Shown here one piece after another: positions 2,094-27,718 of a stretch of DNA of 32,044 nucleotides. A program made the translations under genes and the position numbers. The notes below the pieces were generated by a model, which did no database searches, had not been told where the DNA came from, and saw only the letters and a program-made list of their open reading frames with translations. This stretch comes from a virus. Position 1 is the stretch's first letter. Each line of letters starts with the position of its first letter. The stretch is from positions 3,503 through 35,546 of IMG/VR virus record IMGVR_UViG_3300038825_001314. One strand, given 5' to 3'.

Positions 2094-5000
2094 AATCCTC
2101 TTAGGTTTGCCAAGTCGGCTATGAGGTTTTGATATGCGCCAAGGTTGGGAAACCCAAAGGGAATCGCATTGCCCTGCATATCCCTGCGCTGCGTGTTGAC
2201 TCTGGTCAGAATGTCCTCCAGTTGTGCGGGTGTAAGCGCTGTCTGGTCAGGGTTTATGGGGTCAACGGGGTTAGTGGGCGTAGAATTGAAATTAGCCGCA
2301 GATGGGCGCTGGAATAAGCTATTCAACAAAGCTCCTGCATTGGTTGATGACCCACTGAGCATATTGGCGATAGTTTGATTTATTTGGTTGCGCTGATCCT
2401 CTGGCACAGCCTGCGCGAGCGCGATAAACTGACCGATGTTGCGCTCATCAATGAGGCTGGACGCGTCACGGTTTGCTATGTTAGCCGCTTCCAACTGTGA
2501 CGGCATTAGCTGGTTGGCAAAGTTGACCTGTTGGTTAGTCAGCAGGCTCTCTAATGTCTGCCTATCGCCAAACTGCCCCGTAGCAAGATTCTGTTGGAGT
2601 AGGTTGTTGGCAGTGGTTTGATCCATCACGCCTTGGTTGACCAGCTCCTGCAAGGCAGTAGCATTCGTTCCCTGTTGCTGTAAACTGCCGATGTTACCTT
2701 GGTTGACTAACGTCTGTAGCAGCCTATCGTTTGTCCCTTGCGTGCCGATCTGTGAGATAGCCTGCTGACCGAGAATCCGCTGCAGCGCCTCCGCATTTGT
2801 GCCCTGCTGCTGCAATCCCTCAACGTTGCCCTGATTGACAAGAGCCTGTAGCAGCCTATCGCTCGTGCCTTGTGCGCCAATCTGAGAGAGGGCCTGCTGA
2901 CCTAAGATGCGCTGTAGCGCTTGCTGGTTGGTACCCTGCTGCGAGAGTTGGCCCAATGCGCCTTGGTTGATTAGATCCTGCAAGAGGCGCTGGTTGGTGC
3001 CCTGTGCAGCCAACTGCGAGAGGGACTGTCTGCCTAAGATGTTTTGCAGAGCTTGGTCCGCTGTGCTCTGCGCGCCAATCTGGTCCAGCCTATTTTGCAA
3101 CTCAGCCGTAAACTGACCCTCACCCACGCGCGCTTGACGCACACCCTCTTCAAACTGTTCGCGATCTGTCACGCCGCCCTGTAGCAGTTGACGTGACGTT
3201 ACGCGATCCGCCAAGTCCTGCTGCGCTTGCAACTGACGCAATCCAAGGTCAGCAGCAAAGCGCTCATCAGCACTTAAGCGCGCGACATCAGCAAGCTGTC
3301 TATCCGCTATACCAAACTGCTGATCTACATTGAGGCGTTGGGCATCTAAGTCTGCGGCTTGGTTAGCGAGGGCCCCGCGCAGGTCTTGATCGCGCGCTGT
3401 TAAGCCTGCATTCATGGCAGCGATCTGGCCTTGAAGCGAAGATGCTTGATTGGAAAGGCCAGCGGTCAGGTCTTGATCACGTCCCGTTAAGAGCGCCTCA
3501 AGGTTGAGCCTCTGTGCGTCTAATCCTGCCGCTTGATTAGCAAGGGCAACATCAGAATCCTGCTGGCGTCCTGTGAGTATGGCATCTAAGTTCGCGCGCT
3601 GTGCGTCGAGGTCTGCCTGTTGGTTGGCAAGTGCAGTGAGGCGATCCTGCTCGCGTCCACGCAAGCGCGCGTCTGCCTGCGATTCCTGCGCGCGTAAGTT
3701 GGCAAGCTGATTTAGTTCGCCTTCGGTTAGGTCTTGCGCGCGTGCAGCGAGGTTCTGCGTCTCGTTGAACTGCTGCGCTTCCAAATTAGCGCGCTGGTTA
3801 GCTAAAGCGATATCTGCATCTTGAGCACGTCCCGCAAGCGTGGCATCAAGATTCATGCCTTGCGCCTCTAAGTTCGCACGTTGATTTGCAAGAGCGATAT
3901 CTGCATCCTGTGCGCGCCCTGCTATCATAGCGTCAAGGTTCATGCCCTGCGCTTCTAAGTTTGCGCGCTGGTTAGCAAGAGCTACATCAGCGTCCTGCTG
4001 CCTGCCAGACAGAATGGTTTCTAAGTTTAGACGCTGCGCATCCAAATTCGCCAACTGATTCGACTGCTCTGCGGTTAAGTCCTGTGCGCGGCCTGCAATA
4101 TTTGCGTCTAAATTAGCGCGCTGTGCGTCTAAATTAGCTTGCTGGTTTGCGAGAGCGGTCAATCGATCTTGCTCGCGTCCGCGTAAGAAGGCGTCAGCAG
4201 TTGACTCCTGTGCGCGTAGGTTAGCTAATTGGTTGAGTTCTGCAGCGGACAGATCCTGCGCTCTGGCTGATAAGGCCTGCTGTTCGTTGAAGCGTTGCGC
4301 ATCAAGGTTGGCCTGCTGGTTCGCAAGCGCAGCACTAAGATCCTGCCCACGCGCGCCCAGCACTGCTTCCAAGTTGCTTTGGCCTGCCGTGAGATCTTGT
4401 CCGCGCGCCTGCAACCTTTGCGCATCGCCCGTTATGCCGCGACTTGACGCTAGCCCTGCTAGGTCTATAGCAGCTTGCAGGGCTGGGTCATTCTGACTTA
4501 GGGCATACCCTTGAGCCAAGGCATTCAATCGATCTCTGCGTAGGTTTTGGTTGCCCTCCTCAAACACATCCACCGTGTTGCCCGACTGCAGCACGCCCAG
4601 CCTATTCAACTGTGCTATGTCACGCTCACGTTGACGCGATGCTGTGTTCTCCAAGTCTGCCAGCAGTGCAGCTGTCTGCGGATTGCCTGCGCCACCCATG
4701 GCGTTAGCATTCTCTATCCGACCAAGGAGTAGATTGCCAAATTGGGTCTCAAAGTCAGATGCGCCTGCCGTGGGGGCGAACTCACCCAAAGCGATGCGCT
4801 CATTCATGGCATTGAGCGCTGCATTCTGCGCCTGCACATTGCTGTTGTAGTTATTGAGTGCGATGTTCTGCGCTGACATGGTGGGATCATACGCAGCTAA
4901 TGACTGATCCTGCGATGTAACATTGGGATTAAGTGCATTTAAACCGATGGTATAAGCAGTAGCATTAGGGTTAATTGCCGCTAATGACTGATCTTGAGAC

Positions 5001-13938: not shown

Positions 13939-15319
13939 TCAGGCGGCGTATCGCGAGCCGCGCTTCTTCTTCTTGAGGGAGCCGATGACATTTGCACCCA
14001 GCTTATGATCTTTGTTGCGTGGTTTCTTTTGCTCACTCGCCTTATACGCATACATCATCAGGTAGCGCAGAGCATCTGCTGCGTGATCTTCACTCTTGGT
14101 ATCCACGTCTTCTGGATTGCGCCGATCCCTTGGCAGGCTTGGCATGGTGCGGCATAGATTTTCAGTCCAACCAGAAAACGCATACACGCGTTGTTTAAGC
14201 AGTGCGTCATTAACTACTCGCCATCCAGCTATGCGCTCGTTAGCGCCACGCGTCAAATACAGGCCGTTTTGTCGGAAGATGTCGGCAGGAGAGTTATTGA
14301 TCACTTCGCTTAAGCGCCTGCGCACAAACATGCTGGGGTCGCAGACGATGATGCTGGGCCTGCGTCCACCCGTAAAAGGGCAGGTCTCTATAAGCTTGTT
14401 AATCTCATAGGCGTGCTGAGATGCTGTAGCGTTGCCTTGGTAGTATTCAGAGATGACGTATAGATTACCGTCGTAGTCTGTAGTCGCTAGCAAAAACGCG
14501 CTAGGGGAACTTTCACCGTAGTCTAGCGCGCCAATAAGAGGCCAGTGTTCTGGGATCTCAAATGAGGGAACCTGAACGTCTTTGGTCCACAGAGAAAAGT
14601 AAGCACCAACGATGCTGTCCCAATCTCCTTCAAGCCACGCTTTGACAAGATCAGGATCTCCAACCTCACGCAGGCGATCCACGTAGTCGGGATCATTCCG
14701 CATGAGGATCTTGTTGTCCTGCACGCGCGCGGGGATAAACATCCGCGTTGCGCCATTATCGCCGTGTATCAGCGTGCGCGGGGGACCTGCCGTGATGAAG
14801 TACTGCTTGACTGCGTCATGGCCTACGCCACCTGGGTTTGCCGTGCAGCGGAAACGCTTGCGTTTGGCAGGGCCGCGTAGGCGCGACTTCATCATTTGGT
14901 AAAACTTGAGATCTGACCAGTTGGTAAGTTCATCGAATCCTACCCATGACAGGGACCACCCTTGGTAGCGCGGGAAGTCAAGCTCATTTTCCGCGTGGCG
15001 CAGGCGTAGGATTGCGCCTGTCTTAAAGTGCCACTCGTGCGCGCCAACCTTATACTCGCCGCCTAACTGCGGGTAGAACTCGTGCGTCTGAGCAATAATA
15101 TCATCCAACTCAGGGTAGGAACGGCGAAAGAGCACGCCTACCCAGTCAGATCCCTGGTCAATATCTGCGGCAAAATCTCCGATAAGCCATGCAGTCTTAG
15201 CCTCCCCCCGCTGCGCCGCCATATAGGAGCTCGTCCACAAACCCCGCTGTGCGGATGGCCTCTTCCTGAGGGCCAGCTTGTGGTGTCCATACGACAGGCG
15301 TGGGGCTCGCTATGCTCAT
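13939..15319 (-). CDS. terL: Terminase large subunit, Walker A split by +1 frame change
   Basis: ATP-driven DNA packaging motor and nuclease. The gene starts at ATG 15319, coupled as ATGA to the 56-aa gene. Frame 1 encodes 40 residues ending ELLYGGAAGGG and hits TAA at 15197-15199. Dropping one base there continues with AAG ACT GCA (K-T-A-W), restoring a canonical P-loop GxxxxGKT. The remaining 419 residues are in the next frame, for about 459 residues in all, a normal TerL length. Walker B is WVGFDELTNW. The C-terminal nuclease acidic residues are visible as GALDYG, VCDPS and DHAADALRY. Without the frame change, the downstream frame has only an internal ATG at 15240 and lacks a proper P-loop. 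Cause: programmed frameshift, mutation or an indel in the six-G run; unresolved. Confidence 0.85.
15196..15210 (-). other. Candidate +1 frameshift site in terL
   Basis: Read on the minus strand this is a run of six G, then AGG, C, TAA and G. The upstream frame meets the TAA stop codon just after a purine-rich Shine-Dalgarno-like stretch (GGGGGGAGG). Slippage by +1 at the stop gives AAG, the P-loop lysine. Slippage by +1 on the G-run would also join the frames but would give G-E-A-K-T in place of G-G-G-K-T. The bacterial prfB +1 site likewise has a Shine-Dalgarno-like stretch close to an in-frame stop, though with different spacing. Confidence 0.45.
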
Positions 15320-15486
15320 TTGCTCTTTTTCTTACGCGCTACAGCGGCGTTATCCACTAAGTTGGGATAAGGGCGTCCTGCTTTTTTAGCGCGCGCTTTG
15401 GCGGCGGCTTTCTGTTTAGGCGTTAGCTTCGACCGCTTCGACTTGGGCTTGGGGTTCGCCTTTTCCCAGAAGGGCTTTTTTGCCAT
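15316..15486 (-). CDS. Small basic protein between terS and terL
   Basis: 56 residues from the ATG at 15486, which has a very strong ribosome binding site (GGAGGAG six bases upstream). It begins MAKKPFWEKANPKPKSKRSK and continues with a Lys/Ala-rich helix, then AGRPYPNLVDNAAVARKKKSK. It overlaps the 3' end of terS by 71 bases in another frame, and its TGA overlaps the terL ATG. Small basic proteins of this kind, with the GRPYPNLVDN signature, are familiar next to phage terminases. They are probably DNA-binding, but the function is unknown. Confidence 0.75.
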   Translation of the reverse strand: MAKKPFWEKANPKPKSKRSKLTPKQKAAAKARAKKAGRPYPNLVDNAAVARKKKSK

Positions 15487-15967
15487 TGGTCTCCTCCCAA
15501 TCAGCATCGACTGCCTGCTGCGCTAGTTTATTCTGCTCCAACCACTCTTCGTATGAATCGGGGCGAGGTGGGATGGCTACAGACACATTCCCTTTGTGCT
15601 CCACCTCTACGTGCACCTTGTGATCACCCACTTCCTCGCGTATTTCGCGTAAGACCTTGATTTTAAGATCTACGCGCTTGTCCTCAATCGAATCGTAGAG
15701 GTCCGTTAAGCGTTGTATGCGCGTACGACGCATAGCCATCGGGAGGTCGTTAAAGTTGTCCTTTACACGCGCTAATTCTTGGGAGACGTATTCTTTAAAA
15801 GGCTCAGAGCGCAGAAACCACTTAGTGACGGTGTCTTCCTTTACGCCGACCTTCTTTGCGATGTAGCTCTTGTGCGTCTTTTGCTTGCGCGCAAAGGTGT
15901 CGAGGACGTAGAGGTCCGCCGCTTGCTTTTGCTGTTCCGTGAGTTCTGTGCGTTTTTGTGGGGGCAT
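15416..15967 (-). CDS. terS: Terminase small subunit
   Basis: 183 residues from the ATG at 15967, beginning MPPQKRTELTEQQKQAADLY. The open frame extends to 16039, but the upstream part looks non-coding. A helix-turn-helix lies near residues 27-50 (HKSYIAKKVGVKEDTVTKWF), the typical DNA-recognition element of TerS. It is followed by a helical oligomerisation region (LARVKDNFNDLPMAMRR and beyond) and an acidic tail. It would recognise the packaging site and load TerL. The start has little Shine-Dalgarno sequence. It is the first gene of the late leftward operon and borders the repeat-rich non-coding block, a natural place for a packaging site. Confidence 0.8.
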   Translation of the reverse strand: MPPQKRTELTEQQKQAADLYVLDTFARKQKTHKSYIAKKVGVKEDTVTKWFLRSEPFKEYVSQELARVKDNFNDLPMAMRRTRIQRLTDLYDSIEDKRVDLKIKVLREIREEVGDHKVHVEVEHKGNVSVAIPPRPDSYEEWLEQNKLAQQAVDADWEETNGKKALLGKGEPQAQVEAVEANA

Positions 15968-15996
15968 AATAGATACGGTTAGATATACACCTAAAT

Positions 15997-16024
15997 AATT
16001 TAAAGAGCGCGTGTAGTGAATCAA
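15997..16024 (-). promoter_or_regulatory. Possible late promoter upstream of terS
   Basis: On the minus strand, TTGATT (16019-16024) and TAAATT (15997-16002) are separated by 16 bases, and the block is AT-rich compared with its surroundings. This is a weak sigma-70-like match 30 bases before the terS start. No phage-type RNA polymerase promoter repeat was seen elsewhere. Late genes may instead be read from a promoter further upstream. Confidence 0.3.
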
Positions 16025-16450
16025 GGGGTCTTTTGTCACCGTTTCTTTTGTAAGTTGCTCTATTGCAACGATTTACAGTAGCTAAAATTGCGGGATTTAC
16101 GTATATAAAGGCACCCCCTGATCGGTTCTTTCCCGCGATTTTCGTTTATGTTAATCATTGCGGCACAGGTATTTACGGAAGAAAGTGTGACAAATAACCC
16201 CTTGCATTATTACACGCGTTTGTTATCTTTATGGGGTATTCGTAATTCTTCGCGCGGGTTGGCAATAGGCAAACGACTTTGGCCGCGCGAGGGTGTAGTG
16301 CTCCTACCAAAGGGTCCAGCATAAGAGCAGCCGTGGCATAACGGGATGAGCGGCAAGACTGGTGAGGCTGGTGTCAGAGCCAAGATAACAAGTGGATCCC
16401 CGATCGCAGTGGACACCTCGCTGCGTGCGCCGACGATCACCGCTGTCCGA

Positions 16451-16557
16451 ATGGGCTGATCGCGCAGAGATGACCACCTTTTGCTTGCTTTAGGGCGGGT
16501 AAGGGTTGGACCTCTCTGCGCCTCCTCCTTCCGCGAACCGATGGGCTGTACGCGCAG
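16451..16557 (+). repeat. Spaced direct repeat ATGGGCTG-NN-CGCGCAG
   Basis: Two 17-base copies, at 16451-16467 and 16541-16557, differ only in the central two bases and have starts 90 bases apart. They lie on either side of the inverted repeat 16462-16521; the first copy overlaps its left arm. The arrangement looks like paired protein-binding sites. Confidence 0.5.
16462..16521. repeat. Inverted repeat / long hairpin in non-coding block
   Basis: GCGCAGAGA at 16462-16470 pairs perfectly with TCTCTGCGC at 16513-16521. Pairing partly continues inwards (TGACCACC against GGGTTGGACC), giving a stem of up to about 16 pairs with a loop near 25 bases. There is no T-tract on either side, so it is not a simple terminator. 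It may be structured RNA, or a protein-binding cruciform near the packaging genes. Confidence 0.45.
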
Positions 16558-17150
16558 TACGCGCTAGTAAGCGCTTAGTGCGCGAGAGGGGGGTTTTAGA
16601 GTGGGCGAGATATGGGGGCGAGTATATGCGCATTCCCACTCCACTGCGGGGGGCGGGTCGCTTCACCTGCTCAAATGAGCACTAAAACCAGCTTAATCAA
16701 TCGCAATTAAGCCTAAAATCGCTTTAATCGCATCCTGTTAAGCTGCTAAAGCTGGCATATCGCCCACAAGCGCCCATAACGCCCCTTAGACGCCCTATCG
16801 CCATTTACAGCCATATTGAGCGCCATAGAGCGCCTGGACGCCTTAGAAGCGATTACAGCGCCTTATACGCGCACTTGTGCCAATAGGCGCACATGGCGCT
16901 ATATATGCGCGTATCGTCTTACTATCCATAATGGGAATTATCGTTAGTATAAAAATAGGCGTATGAGGGCGCGCGTACATGCAGCCCTGAGCGCCCCTAA
17001 GCGCGCGTATGCGCTGAACGCGCGCGTATCTATATAGGCAGCGGATTGATTAGCTTAGGATCGGTAACGCTATCCCAGCGCGCATACAGCGCACATTGCG
17101 CGCGCATAGCGCAGCAGCAGCAGCAGCGCACAAGCTCGCGCAGCGGGCAC

Positions 17151-17184
17151 AAAAAAGCGCCCCTAGCCGAATGACTGGGGGCGC
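17151..17184 (-). terminator. Rho-independent terminator of the early leftward operon
   Basis: On the minus strand a GC-rich stem (GCGCCCC paired with GGGGCGC, plus two more pairs) with an 8-10 base loop is followed by six T. It lies 26 bases beyond the stop of the 80-aa gene, as expected for the end of the leftward cluster read from 18951. Confidence 0.85.
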
Positions 17185-26170: not shown

Positions 26171-26668
26171 ATGAAAATCACGCACATTAAAACGCCACTT
26201 AATAAATACACTTTCAAATCACCTAAGATTAAAAGATGGGCAGAGGGCAAATGTGAGGGCTATGTGTTAAACTTATTTGCAGGACAAACCCTACTTGATG
26301 TGAATGAGCATCGGAATGACATAAGGGAGAACATGAGGGCGGATACACACATGGATGCTTTGGATTTTTGCAAAAGTTACAGCGGCAATCTGTTTGATAC
26401 GATTCTTCTTGATCCGCCTTACGCCTTTCGCAAGTCTATGGAAATGTACGAGGGCGCTATGTGCAGCCCGTTTAATAGACTGAAAGATGCCATCATTCCA
26501 ATTCTAAGTGAAAACGGCAAGGTTATAACCTTTGGTTATCACTCAATAAGCATGGGCGCAAAGCGCGGATTTGAAGTAGAAGAGGTTTGCATAATGAGCC
26601 ATGGTGGTGCAATCCACGATACGATTGCAACTGTTGAAAGACGCACTAAATGTCATTCCCCACGCTAA
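26171..26668 (+). CDS. Small DNA methyltransferase (DPPY type)
   Basis: 165 residues with GAGGAG before the ATG. SAM-binding motif I appears as NLFAGQT (34-40) and catalytic motif IV as LLDPPYAFRKSMEMYEG with DPPY at 81-84. That marks an amino-group (N6-adenine or N4-cytosine) methyltransferase. A VITFGYHS segment near 118-125 fits a later core strand. It is short, with no separate target-recognition domain, and is more AT-rich than its neighbours, which suggests recent acquisition. It converges with the integrase gene with a 23-base 3' overlap. Possible roles are protection from restriction or regulation. Confidence 0.7.
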   Translation: MKITHIKTPLNKYTFKSPKIKRWAEGKCEGYVLNLFAGQTLLDVNEHRNDIRENMRADTHMDALDFCKSYSGNLFDTILLDPPYAFRKSMEMYEGAMCSPFNRLKDAIIPILSENGKVITFGYHSISMGAKRGFEVEEVCIMSHGGAIHDTIATVERRTKCHSPR

Positions 26669-27536
26669 ATTTTTCATGCTGTGATTTCACGTTCGATCTT
26701 GCCATGTGCACATAACGTGCAGTCATGGCTTGCGTAGTGTGGCCCAAGATTCGTTGCAAGCTGAAGGGATCACCCCCCGCTTCAATGTAATGCAGGGCAA
26801 ACGAATGCCGCGCGGTGTGTGGAGAGAGGCGCACCCCCTCAATGTTGACCTTCTTGCGCAAGCGTTTAAACATCATCTGCACGCCGCGCGGGGAGAAGGG
26901 TGTTCCCTCCTCTGTGATAAATAGCTCTCTATACTGTGGGCGCGCGTAGCGCTCGCGCTGCTTGAGATACGCCCACAATGCCTTGCGCGTCTTCTTGCTA
27001 TATGGCACGGAGCGCTCCTTCTGCCCCTTGCCATGCCGCACCAATATATACCCCTCCTGCAGATCCACATCCAGCGTAGTAACACCGCACGCCTCTTGCA
27101 GGCGCAGCCCTGTGTCGAAGAGCAGGCGCACTATCGTCTGGTTGCGCAGGCCGCGAAAGGTGCTTGTGTCGAATGCACTCAGGACGGCGCGTATTTGGTC
27201 TGTTGATAGGGGTCGCACGGTAGTCTGCGAAGAGGCTACTTTTGGCAGGCGTATAGCTTCTTTAGTATACCCCTCTGCGTCTAGGAATCGCGTGAAAGTT
27301 TTTATCCCACGCCAGTAGGTGTGTCGCGTTGTGCTGGTCGTTCCGCGCTCCTGCGCCGCGAGGAAGAAGGGCGCGATCCACTCTTGCAGTGCGTCCACGT
27401 CCACGTCCCCTTCCGCTTCTTGCACAAAACGCACGAGCGCGCCAGCCGAATCATGGTAAAAAGCGAGCGTCTTCTGTGTGAACCCGCTAATCTTTTTTTC
27501 TGCGAGGAAAACCTCAAACGCCTTAGATATGCGCAT
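26646..27536 (-). CDS. int: Tyrosine integrase
   Basis: 296 residues from ATG 27536, chosen because AGGGGGG lies eight bases upstream (an upstream in-frame start at 27572 lacks one). An N-terminal SAM-like core-binding domain (ISKAFEVFLAEKKISGFTQK) precedes the catalytic domain. Catalytic residues are all visible: R145 in TGLRLQE, K170 in HGKGQKERS, H240 and R243 in PHTARHS, H266 in LGHTT, and Y275 in ARYVHM. It integrates the phage at an att site, very probably the adjacent tRNA-Val. No excisionase was recognised. Its 5' leader contains an inverted repeat that could hide the ribosome site. Confidence 0.95.
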   Translation of the reverse strand: MRISKAFEVFLAEKKISGFTQKTLAFYHDSAGALVRFVQEAEGDVDVDALQEWIAPFFLAAQERGTTSTTRHTYWRGIKTFTRFLDAEGYTKEAIRLPKVASSQTTVRPLSTDQIRAVLSAFDTSTFRGLRNQTIVRLLFDTGLRLQEACGVTTLDVDLQEGYILVRHGKGQKERSVPYSKKTRKALWAYLKQRERYARPQYRELFITEEGTPFSPRGVQMMFKRLRKKVNIEGVRLSPHTARHSFALHYIEAGGDPFSLQRILGHTTQAMTARYVHMARSNVKSQHEKFSVGNDI

Positions 27537-27537
27537 A

Positions 27538-27598
27538 AAAATACCCCCCTGGTGTGCGCTTGCCTTGAACAAAGCAGGTGCTCTCAGAGGGGTATTTT
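27538..27598 (-). promoter_or_regulatory. Inverted repeat in the integrase leader
   Basis: AAAATACCCC at 27538-27547 and GGGGTATTTT at 27589-27598 are exact inverted copies separated by 41 bases. In the leftward transcript one arm contains the integrase ribosome binding site (GGGGGG) while the other could pair with it. The element can be an RNA switch on integrase translation, or a pair of arm-type binding sites. An 11-base word GCAGGTGCTCT (27574-27584), also found in the tRNA-Val gene, lies in the loop. Confidence 0.5.
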
Positions 27599-27641
27599 CT
27601 TGCTTGCGCGAATTCGCGTAAGTTATTGCGCTGCAGTAAAA

Positions 27642-27718
27642 TGGTGGGCGATGCTGGGCTCGAACCAGCGACCCCCTGCTTGTAAGGCAGGTGCTCTGAC
27701 CAACTGAGCTAATCGCTT
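27642..27718 (-). tRNA. tRNA-Val (TAC)
   Basis: All arms can be drawn: D arm GCTC/GAGC, anticodon arm CCTGC-CTTACAA-GCAGG with TAC at 34-36, T arm GCTGG-TTCGAGC-CCAGC, encoded CCA. The acceptor stem is imperfect: AAGCGAT against ATCGCCC leaves mismatches A1-C72 and A2-C71. Its 3' end faces the integrase, the classic layout of an attachment site in a tRNA gene. It may be the attP copy of a host tRNA, a working phage tRNA, or both. Confidence 0.85.

Follow-up and report, generated by a model that had tools for sequence, protein, structure and literature searches.

The 32,044-nucleotide stretch of viral DNA analysed here (positions 3,503 to 35,546 of IMG/VR virus record IMGVR_UViG_3300038825_001314; hereafter the window) carries a large-terminase gene that is interrupted by an in-frame TAA inside the P-loop (Walker A motif) of its ATPase. 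The break is conserved in related contigs and recurs in unrelated phages. From these comparisons we put the probability that the gene contains a functional programmed +1 frameshift at roughly 0.68. The shift would most likely be ribosomal and similar to that of prfB, occurring at Gly-UAA and helped by a GGG nine bases before the stop. If so, there is an entire class of phages in which the essential packaging ATPase can be produced only through recoding, at the catalytic loop itself.

The interrupted gene and its conservation

The large-terminase gene extends from 15319 to 13939 on the minus strand, and the TAA (15199-15197) stands right after the residues YGGAAGGG. From the ATG at 15319, frame 1 reads MSIASPTPVVWTPQAGPQEEAIRTAGFVDELLYGGAAGGG*, that is, 40 codons up to the TAA. 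This first open reading frame (ORF1, 15197..15319, minus strand) encodes the adenine-binding segment WTPQAGPQ and the first half of Walker A, and its product corresponds by homology to the N-terminal part of those relatives whose frame is continuous. The second (ORF2, 13939..15198, minus strand) lies in the +1 frame and starts with the Walker A lysine (AAG, 15198-15196). It reads K-T-A-W onward through Walker B and the nuclease domain and is open for 418 codons up to the stop at 13939. When TAAG is taken as one step, T 15199 being the base passed over, a joined terminase of 459 residues is obtained, with the Walker A motif GGAAGGGKT continuing as GGAAGGGKTAW. The three glycine codons before the stop (Gly1-Gly2-Gly3, minus strand 15200..15208) are GGG GGA GGC, with GGG (15208-15206) at -9 to -7 from the stop, and a six-G run occupies 15209-15204. 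The site sequence GCGGGGGGAGGCTAAG occurs once in the window, even with up to 3 mismatches tolerated. The terminase ATG overlaps a small upstream ORF on the same strand (15507-15316; phrog_34011 by PHROG profile) as ATGA. The original prediction had described frame 1 ending in YGGAAGGG-stop, a next frame supplying K-T-A-W, one +1 shift restoring GxxxxGKT, a six-G run before the stop and ATGA coupling to the upstream gene, and our coordinates and translations agree with each of these; it was also correct that five G would give G-E-A-K-T.

The downstream part matched the PHROG terminase large subunit with an E-value of 1.5e-30 in a profile search. Only after the +1 shift were Walker A (GxxxxGK[ST], here GGAAGGGKT) and Walker B (D129/E130) present in one polypeptide, and G35, G38, G40 and K41 were invariant in an alignment with 18 relatives. 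In the AlphaFold2 model of the joined protein (predicted local distance difference test score, pLDDT, 75), strand, P-loop and helix ran exactly across the junction. Foldseek searches with this model returned the D6E large terminase (PDB 5oea) as the best match, followed by T4 gp17, HK97 and Sf6. The D6E enzyme was the nearest solved fold (E 3e-15, template modelling score about 0.6), though it shared only 18% identity with the joined protein, and to our knowledge no frameshift is known in the D6E terminase. The modelled fold of the joined protein is that of a large terminase, comprising ATPase and nuclease domains.

Three other IMG/VR contigs, from other metagenomes, had the same break: L001 (98% amino-acid identity) and L002 and L003 (both 95%). 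All four genes of this clade were 1381 nucleotides long with zero indels, and the ATGA overlap was retained in L001 and replaced by TAAATG in L002 and L003. Among the four members, synonymous divergence (dS) in ORF2 reached 0.54 while nonsynonymous divergence (dN) was about 0.03. ORF1, whose frame 0 is conserved in L001-L003, had a dS of 0.07-0.26 and a dN of 0.01-0.03. Judged by these substitution patterns, both halves of the gene are under purifying selection. The bases of the site differed within the clade (GGC-TAAG, GGC-TAAA and GGG-TAAG); the TAA was nevertheless present in all four members, and the frame was never repaired. Furthermore, all eight fourfold-degenerate sites between -33 and -4 before the stop were invariant (about p 0.004), and ORF2 contained no window of eight fourfold sites that were all invariant. 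The nearest relative with a continuous frame was L004, at 74% amino-acid identity, and about 76 further relatives at 51-58% were also continuous.

The prediction had offered a homopolymer indel as the alternative to a programmed shift, and had proposed that close relatives be examined for the same stop, a continuous frame in them speaking against programming. L001, L002 and L003 all had the stop, and continuity began only at 74% amino-acid identity. Since the closest relatives (86-98% identical) all share the break with a dS of up to 0.54 and a dN of about 0.03, the error option is excluded and the programmed option supported. Chance is likewise ruled out, because the three further contigs carry the same break with independent substitutions. 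The homopolymer context would favour an error of sequencing or assembly, or decay of the gene, and one similar match may be such an error: L089 (4270-4690) is a terminase with GGC GGG TAAG at the P-loop and a second frame break 130 codons on, and was set aside as probably an error-prone contig. However, the four clade contigs have substitutions around the break with a dN/dS of about 0.06, and two unrelated lineages conserve it (see next section). Downstream of the P-loop, no frame change or in-frame stop was found in 80 relatives of the window gene, and only one frame change and three in-frame stops were found in about 200 kb of two further terminase families with P-loop breaks. We therefore regard an error or a decayed gene as scarcely credible; as far as the substitutions tell, the break is kept by natural selection.

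Very improbable, too, is that no frameshift occurs and ORF2 is started at an internal ATG at -23, giving a protein MAAQRGEAKT... that would be nuclease-only or ATPase-dead. This ATG, with a weak upstream GGACGAG, was found in 4/4 clade members. However, it is imposed by the frame-0 codons TAT GGC, and other lineages have no ATG there; such a start would also leave both the conserved ORF1 and the P-loop unused although the rest of the motor is under strong selection.

P-loop breaks in other terminases

IMG/VR was scanned with the pattern Gly-Gly-x-x-Gly-Gly-Gly-TAA-R, in which the GGN codons and the TAA were fixed and the third bases were free. Two unrelated terminase lineages had the identical layout GGG-GGN-GGG-UAA-R. 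In the first, L082 and L086 kept it at 55% amino-acid identity and saturated dS; in the second, L096 and L291 kept it at a dS of 1.15 and a dN of 0.076. GGG at Gly1 was found in 5 of 165 intact P-loops (3%), versus every +1-TAA lineage that had a relative with the same break. Several matches were rejected. L095 was a pattern match only, since its +1 frame is intact and encodes a peptidoglycan-binding protein, and the genome contigs L097-L108 had a frame 0 without a terminase N-terminus (in L097, for instance, another frame reads through an intact ClpB-like GEPGVGKT). The terminases of YuA and ArV1 were examined for a break and both were continuous. Searches of the GenBank phage collection gave no near DNA match.

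When the T of the stop was exchanged for A, C or G in a control scan, two more terminase families emerged, in which the P-loop was broken by -1 at a G_GGA_AAA heptamer or by +1 at the six-G run GGG GGG C. According to their trees, the frame state changed at least six times in one family and at least three times in the other, nine or more changes in all, against the single frame change and three in-frame stops in their downstream sequence noted above. Both families were entered via broken members, so that their break frequencies of about 8-11% are no population estimates. The -1 breaks at G_GGA_AAA were in L129, L139, L140, L142, L143 and L159 and in L232, L255, L256, L269, L284 and L287, at no fewer than six separate places in two family trees; the record number of L129 resembles that of an isolate genome. 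The +1 breaks at GGG GGG C were in L209 and L213, with a seven-G variant in L281, all in one rumen-type terminase family.

Interruptions of other kinds were also observed. L113, L119 and L122 carried inteins at the P-loop lysine and were thus rejected as frameshifts; together with L166, L196 and L286 they represent large-terminase inteins located either at this lysine or directly ahead of the residue that follows it. In Rhizobium phage RHph_N3_13 (L093, 413-630), a group I intron (Rfam RF00028) lies within the terminase P-loop, and the annotated gene lacks the first exon. By sequence comparison, then, the P-loop is a hot spot at which interruptions of several kinds occur. We lean, somewhat less firmly than for the window gene, towards the view that the terminase P-loop is a general site of recoding among tailed phages and has become one repeatedly in evolution. 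The obligatory Gly-Gly-Gly-Lys codons would provide a Shine-Dalgarno-like G-run and slippery heptamers with no change of protein, and a +1 shift (GGG GGN GGS UAA or GGG GGG C) or a -1 shift (G_GGA_AAA) would set the dose of the motor. That this amino-acid constraint can yield a frameshift signal free of cost would explain its repeated origin.

Site and nature of the putative shift

In the proposed mechanism, ribosomes coupled from the upstream gene would translate the 40 frame-0 codons of ORF1 and arrive at Gly3-UAA inside the Walker A loop. The majority would terminate at UAA and release a 40-residue peptide, while a fraction would skip the U, resume at AAG (Lys41) and make the terminase at full length, the only form competent as an ATPase (GGAAGGGKT). 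The G-rich Gly1-Gly2 codons probably pair with the anti-Shine-Dalgarno of 16S rRNA and strain the contact between ribosome and mRNA as in prfB. Such a shift probably serves to keep the packaging motor scarce, in a defined proportion to the structural proteins encoded in its operon; throttling of motor production by the shift is plausible, and how phages keep the dosage of the motor low would become directly testable if the shift is real.

A shift located 1-2 codons earlier on the G-run, by re-pairing of tRNA-Gly from GGG to GGG, would give GGAAGEAKT in the window and GEGKT, GAGKS, GEGKS or GVGKT in relatives, with the TAA ending only the unshifted ribosomes. Each +1 member has GGG-GG at this place, so perfect re-pairing is possible in all of them, and this weighs against the stop as the site of the shift, as does the poor re-pairing of GGC to GCU compared with CUU to UUU in prfB. 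Three more points tell against a prfB-like shift at Gly3-UAA: the stop is UAA-purine and not the weak UGA-C of prfB, the Shine-Dalgarno-like run lies partly over the P site and nearer to the stop than in prfB, and a search for a stable 3' RNA structure found none (z -0.7 and +1.0). Moreover, L209 and L213 go +1 on GGG GGG C, where the next codon is not a stop, and in L002, L003, L082, L086, L096 and L291 Gly3 is GGG, so the +1 frame still reads Gly. However, in the window and L001 an earlier shift would put Ala at residue 40, which is Gly in 18/18 aligned relatives, and Gly2 would vary as Glu/Ala/Val through second-position changes. In frame 0, the +1 members differ in Gly2-Gly3 only at third positions, and silently (GGA/GGC/GGT at Gly2, GGC/GGG at Gly3). 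The ribosome would also have no reason to stall at GGG GGA. Because the variation is silent in frame 0 and an earlier shift would replace an invariant Gly by Ala, a shift at Gly3-UAA is favoured; the earlier site is unlikely but keeps an appreciable chance, since re-pairing of GGC to GCU is poor and GGG on the G-run can re-pair perfectly.

Transcriptional slippage, in which RNA polymerase loses one G of the run in part of the transcripts and so restores the frame, appears improbable. There is a six-G run at the site, and the length of the run varies in one other family (seven in L281). Slippage in bacteria usually requires longer runs, however, and two conserved +1 lineages have just five G. 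One G fewer would also place Ala at the invariant Gly in the window and L001, and in the -1 lineages G_GGA_AAA stands in the phase that suits a ribosomal heptamer. Two further explanations were discarded: the phage has only tRNA-Val and tRNA-Met, and thus no suppressor or frameshifting tRNA of its own, and reassignment of the stop is contradicted by the many other window genes that UAA terminates.

Comparison with known recoding systems and phage context

The programmed +1 frameshift of prfB (release factor 2) uses a Shine-Dalgarno-like element with GGG at -9 to -7, CUU-U and a UGA-C stop (PMC12421855). The terminase site shares with it the early in-frame stop, a purine-rich, putatively Shine-Dalgarno-like stretch with GGG at the same distance, and one skipped base. 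In both, the stop directly follows the shift codon; here this is kept in the four clade members (GGC TAA in the window and L001, GGG in the others) and in L082, L086, L096 and L291. In contrast to CUU-U and UGA-C, the terminase site has GGC or GGG followed by UAA-R, and its G element overlaps the P-site codons. The -12 to -7 duplex reaches -4.5 kcal/mol here versus -8.2 in prfB, and the G-run extends into the shift codons. The terminase gene is no release factor, so the logic of autoregulation is absent. Since two defining features fail (CUU-U and UGA-C), we do not class it with the prfB-type sites. The likeness to prfB proposed in the original prediction thus held for the layout, in which GGG precedes an in-frame stop by nine bases, and failed in the detail, the stop being UAA instead of UGA and GGC-U re-pairing poorly. 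It would be a compact natural +1 site built of glycine codons and UAA, and in this would differ from the textbook site of prfB.

In Streptomyces phage Hau3, translational bypassing has been suspected in the terminase gene (PMC5009743). This gene, too, is thought to need recoding for full length, but the bypassing is tied to a UUA codon and a KGWG-coding context and not to a one-base shift in the P-loop. The -1 frameshift of the phage tail-assembly chaperone G/GT (Xu, Hendrix and Duda 2004, as cited in PMC3483164) is likewise a programmed frameshift in a phage morphogenesis gene, and the -1 P-loop sites use a heptamer, G_GGA_AAA, similar to its own. However, it is a -1 shift near the 3' end of a tail gene, upstream of the tape measure gene, and yields two functional products at a fixed ratio; the shift in the window would be +1, early in the large-terminase gene, with a 40-residue fragment as the unshifted product. 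Listeria phage PSA is reported, in work by Zimmer from 2003 (cited in PMC10299305), to use +1 frameshifts in its capsid and tail genes, which likewise are structural; the gene and the site differ from ours, and the shift there lies near the 3' end and adds a C-terminal extension. Reports of a frameshift in the terminase P-loop were sought in the open-licence literature and none was found, and the word terminase is absent from the main text of the GeneTack survey of 1106 genomes. Tail genes of phages, like prfB, are familiar sites of programmed frameshifting. If the terminase shift is real, gene callers overlook the hallmark gene on which phage classification relies most, or report it in pieces.

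Of the neighbouring genes, a candidate small terminase subunit (phrog_7344, a weak PHROG profile match with E 9e-6) lies at 15416..16039 on the minus strand. The packaging genes are separated from the next module by a long stretch without clear genes (16300-17160), in which short palindromes of the GCGC type abound. A tyrosine integrase gene stands next to a tRNA-Val gene (27642-27718) in the region 26646-27718, which suggests that the phage is temperate with its attachment site at tRNA-Val.
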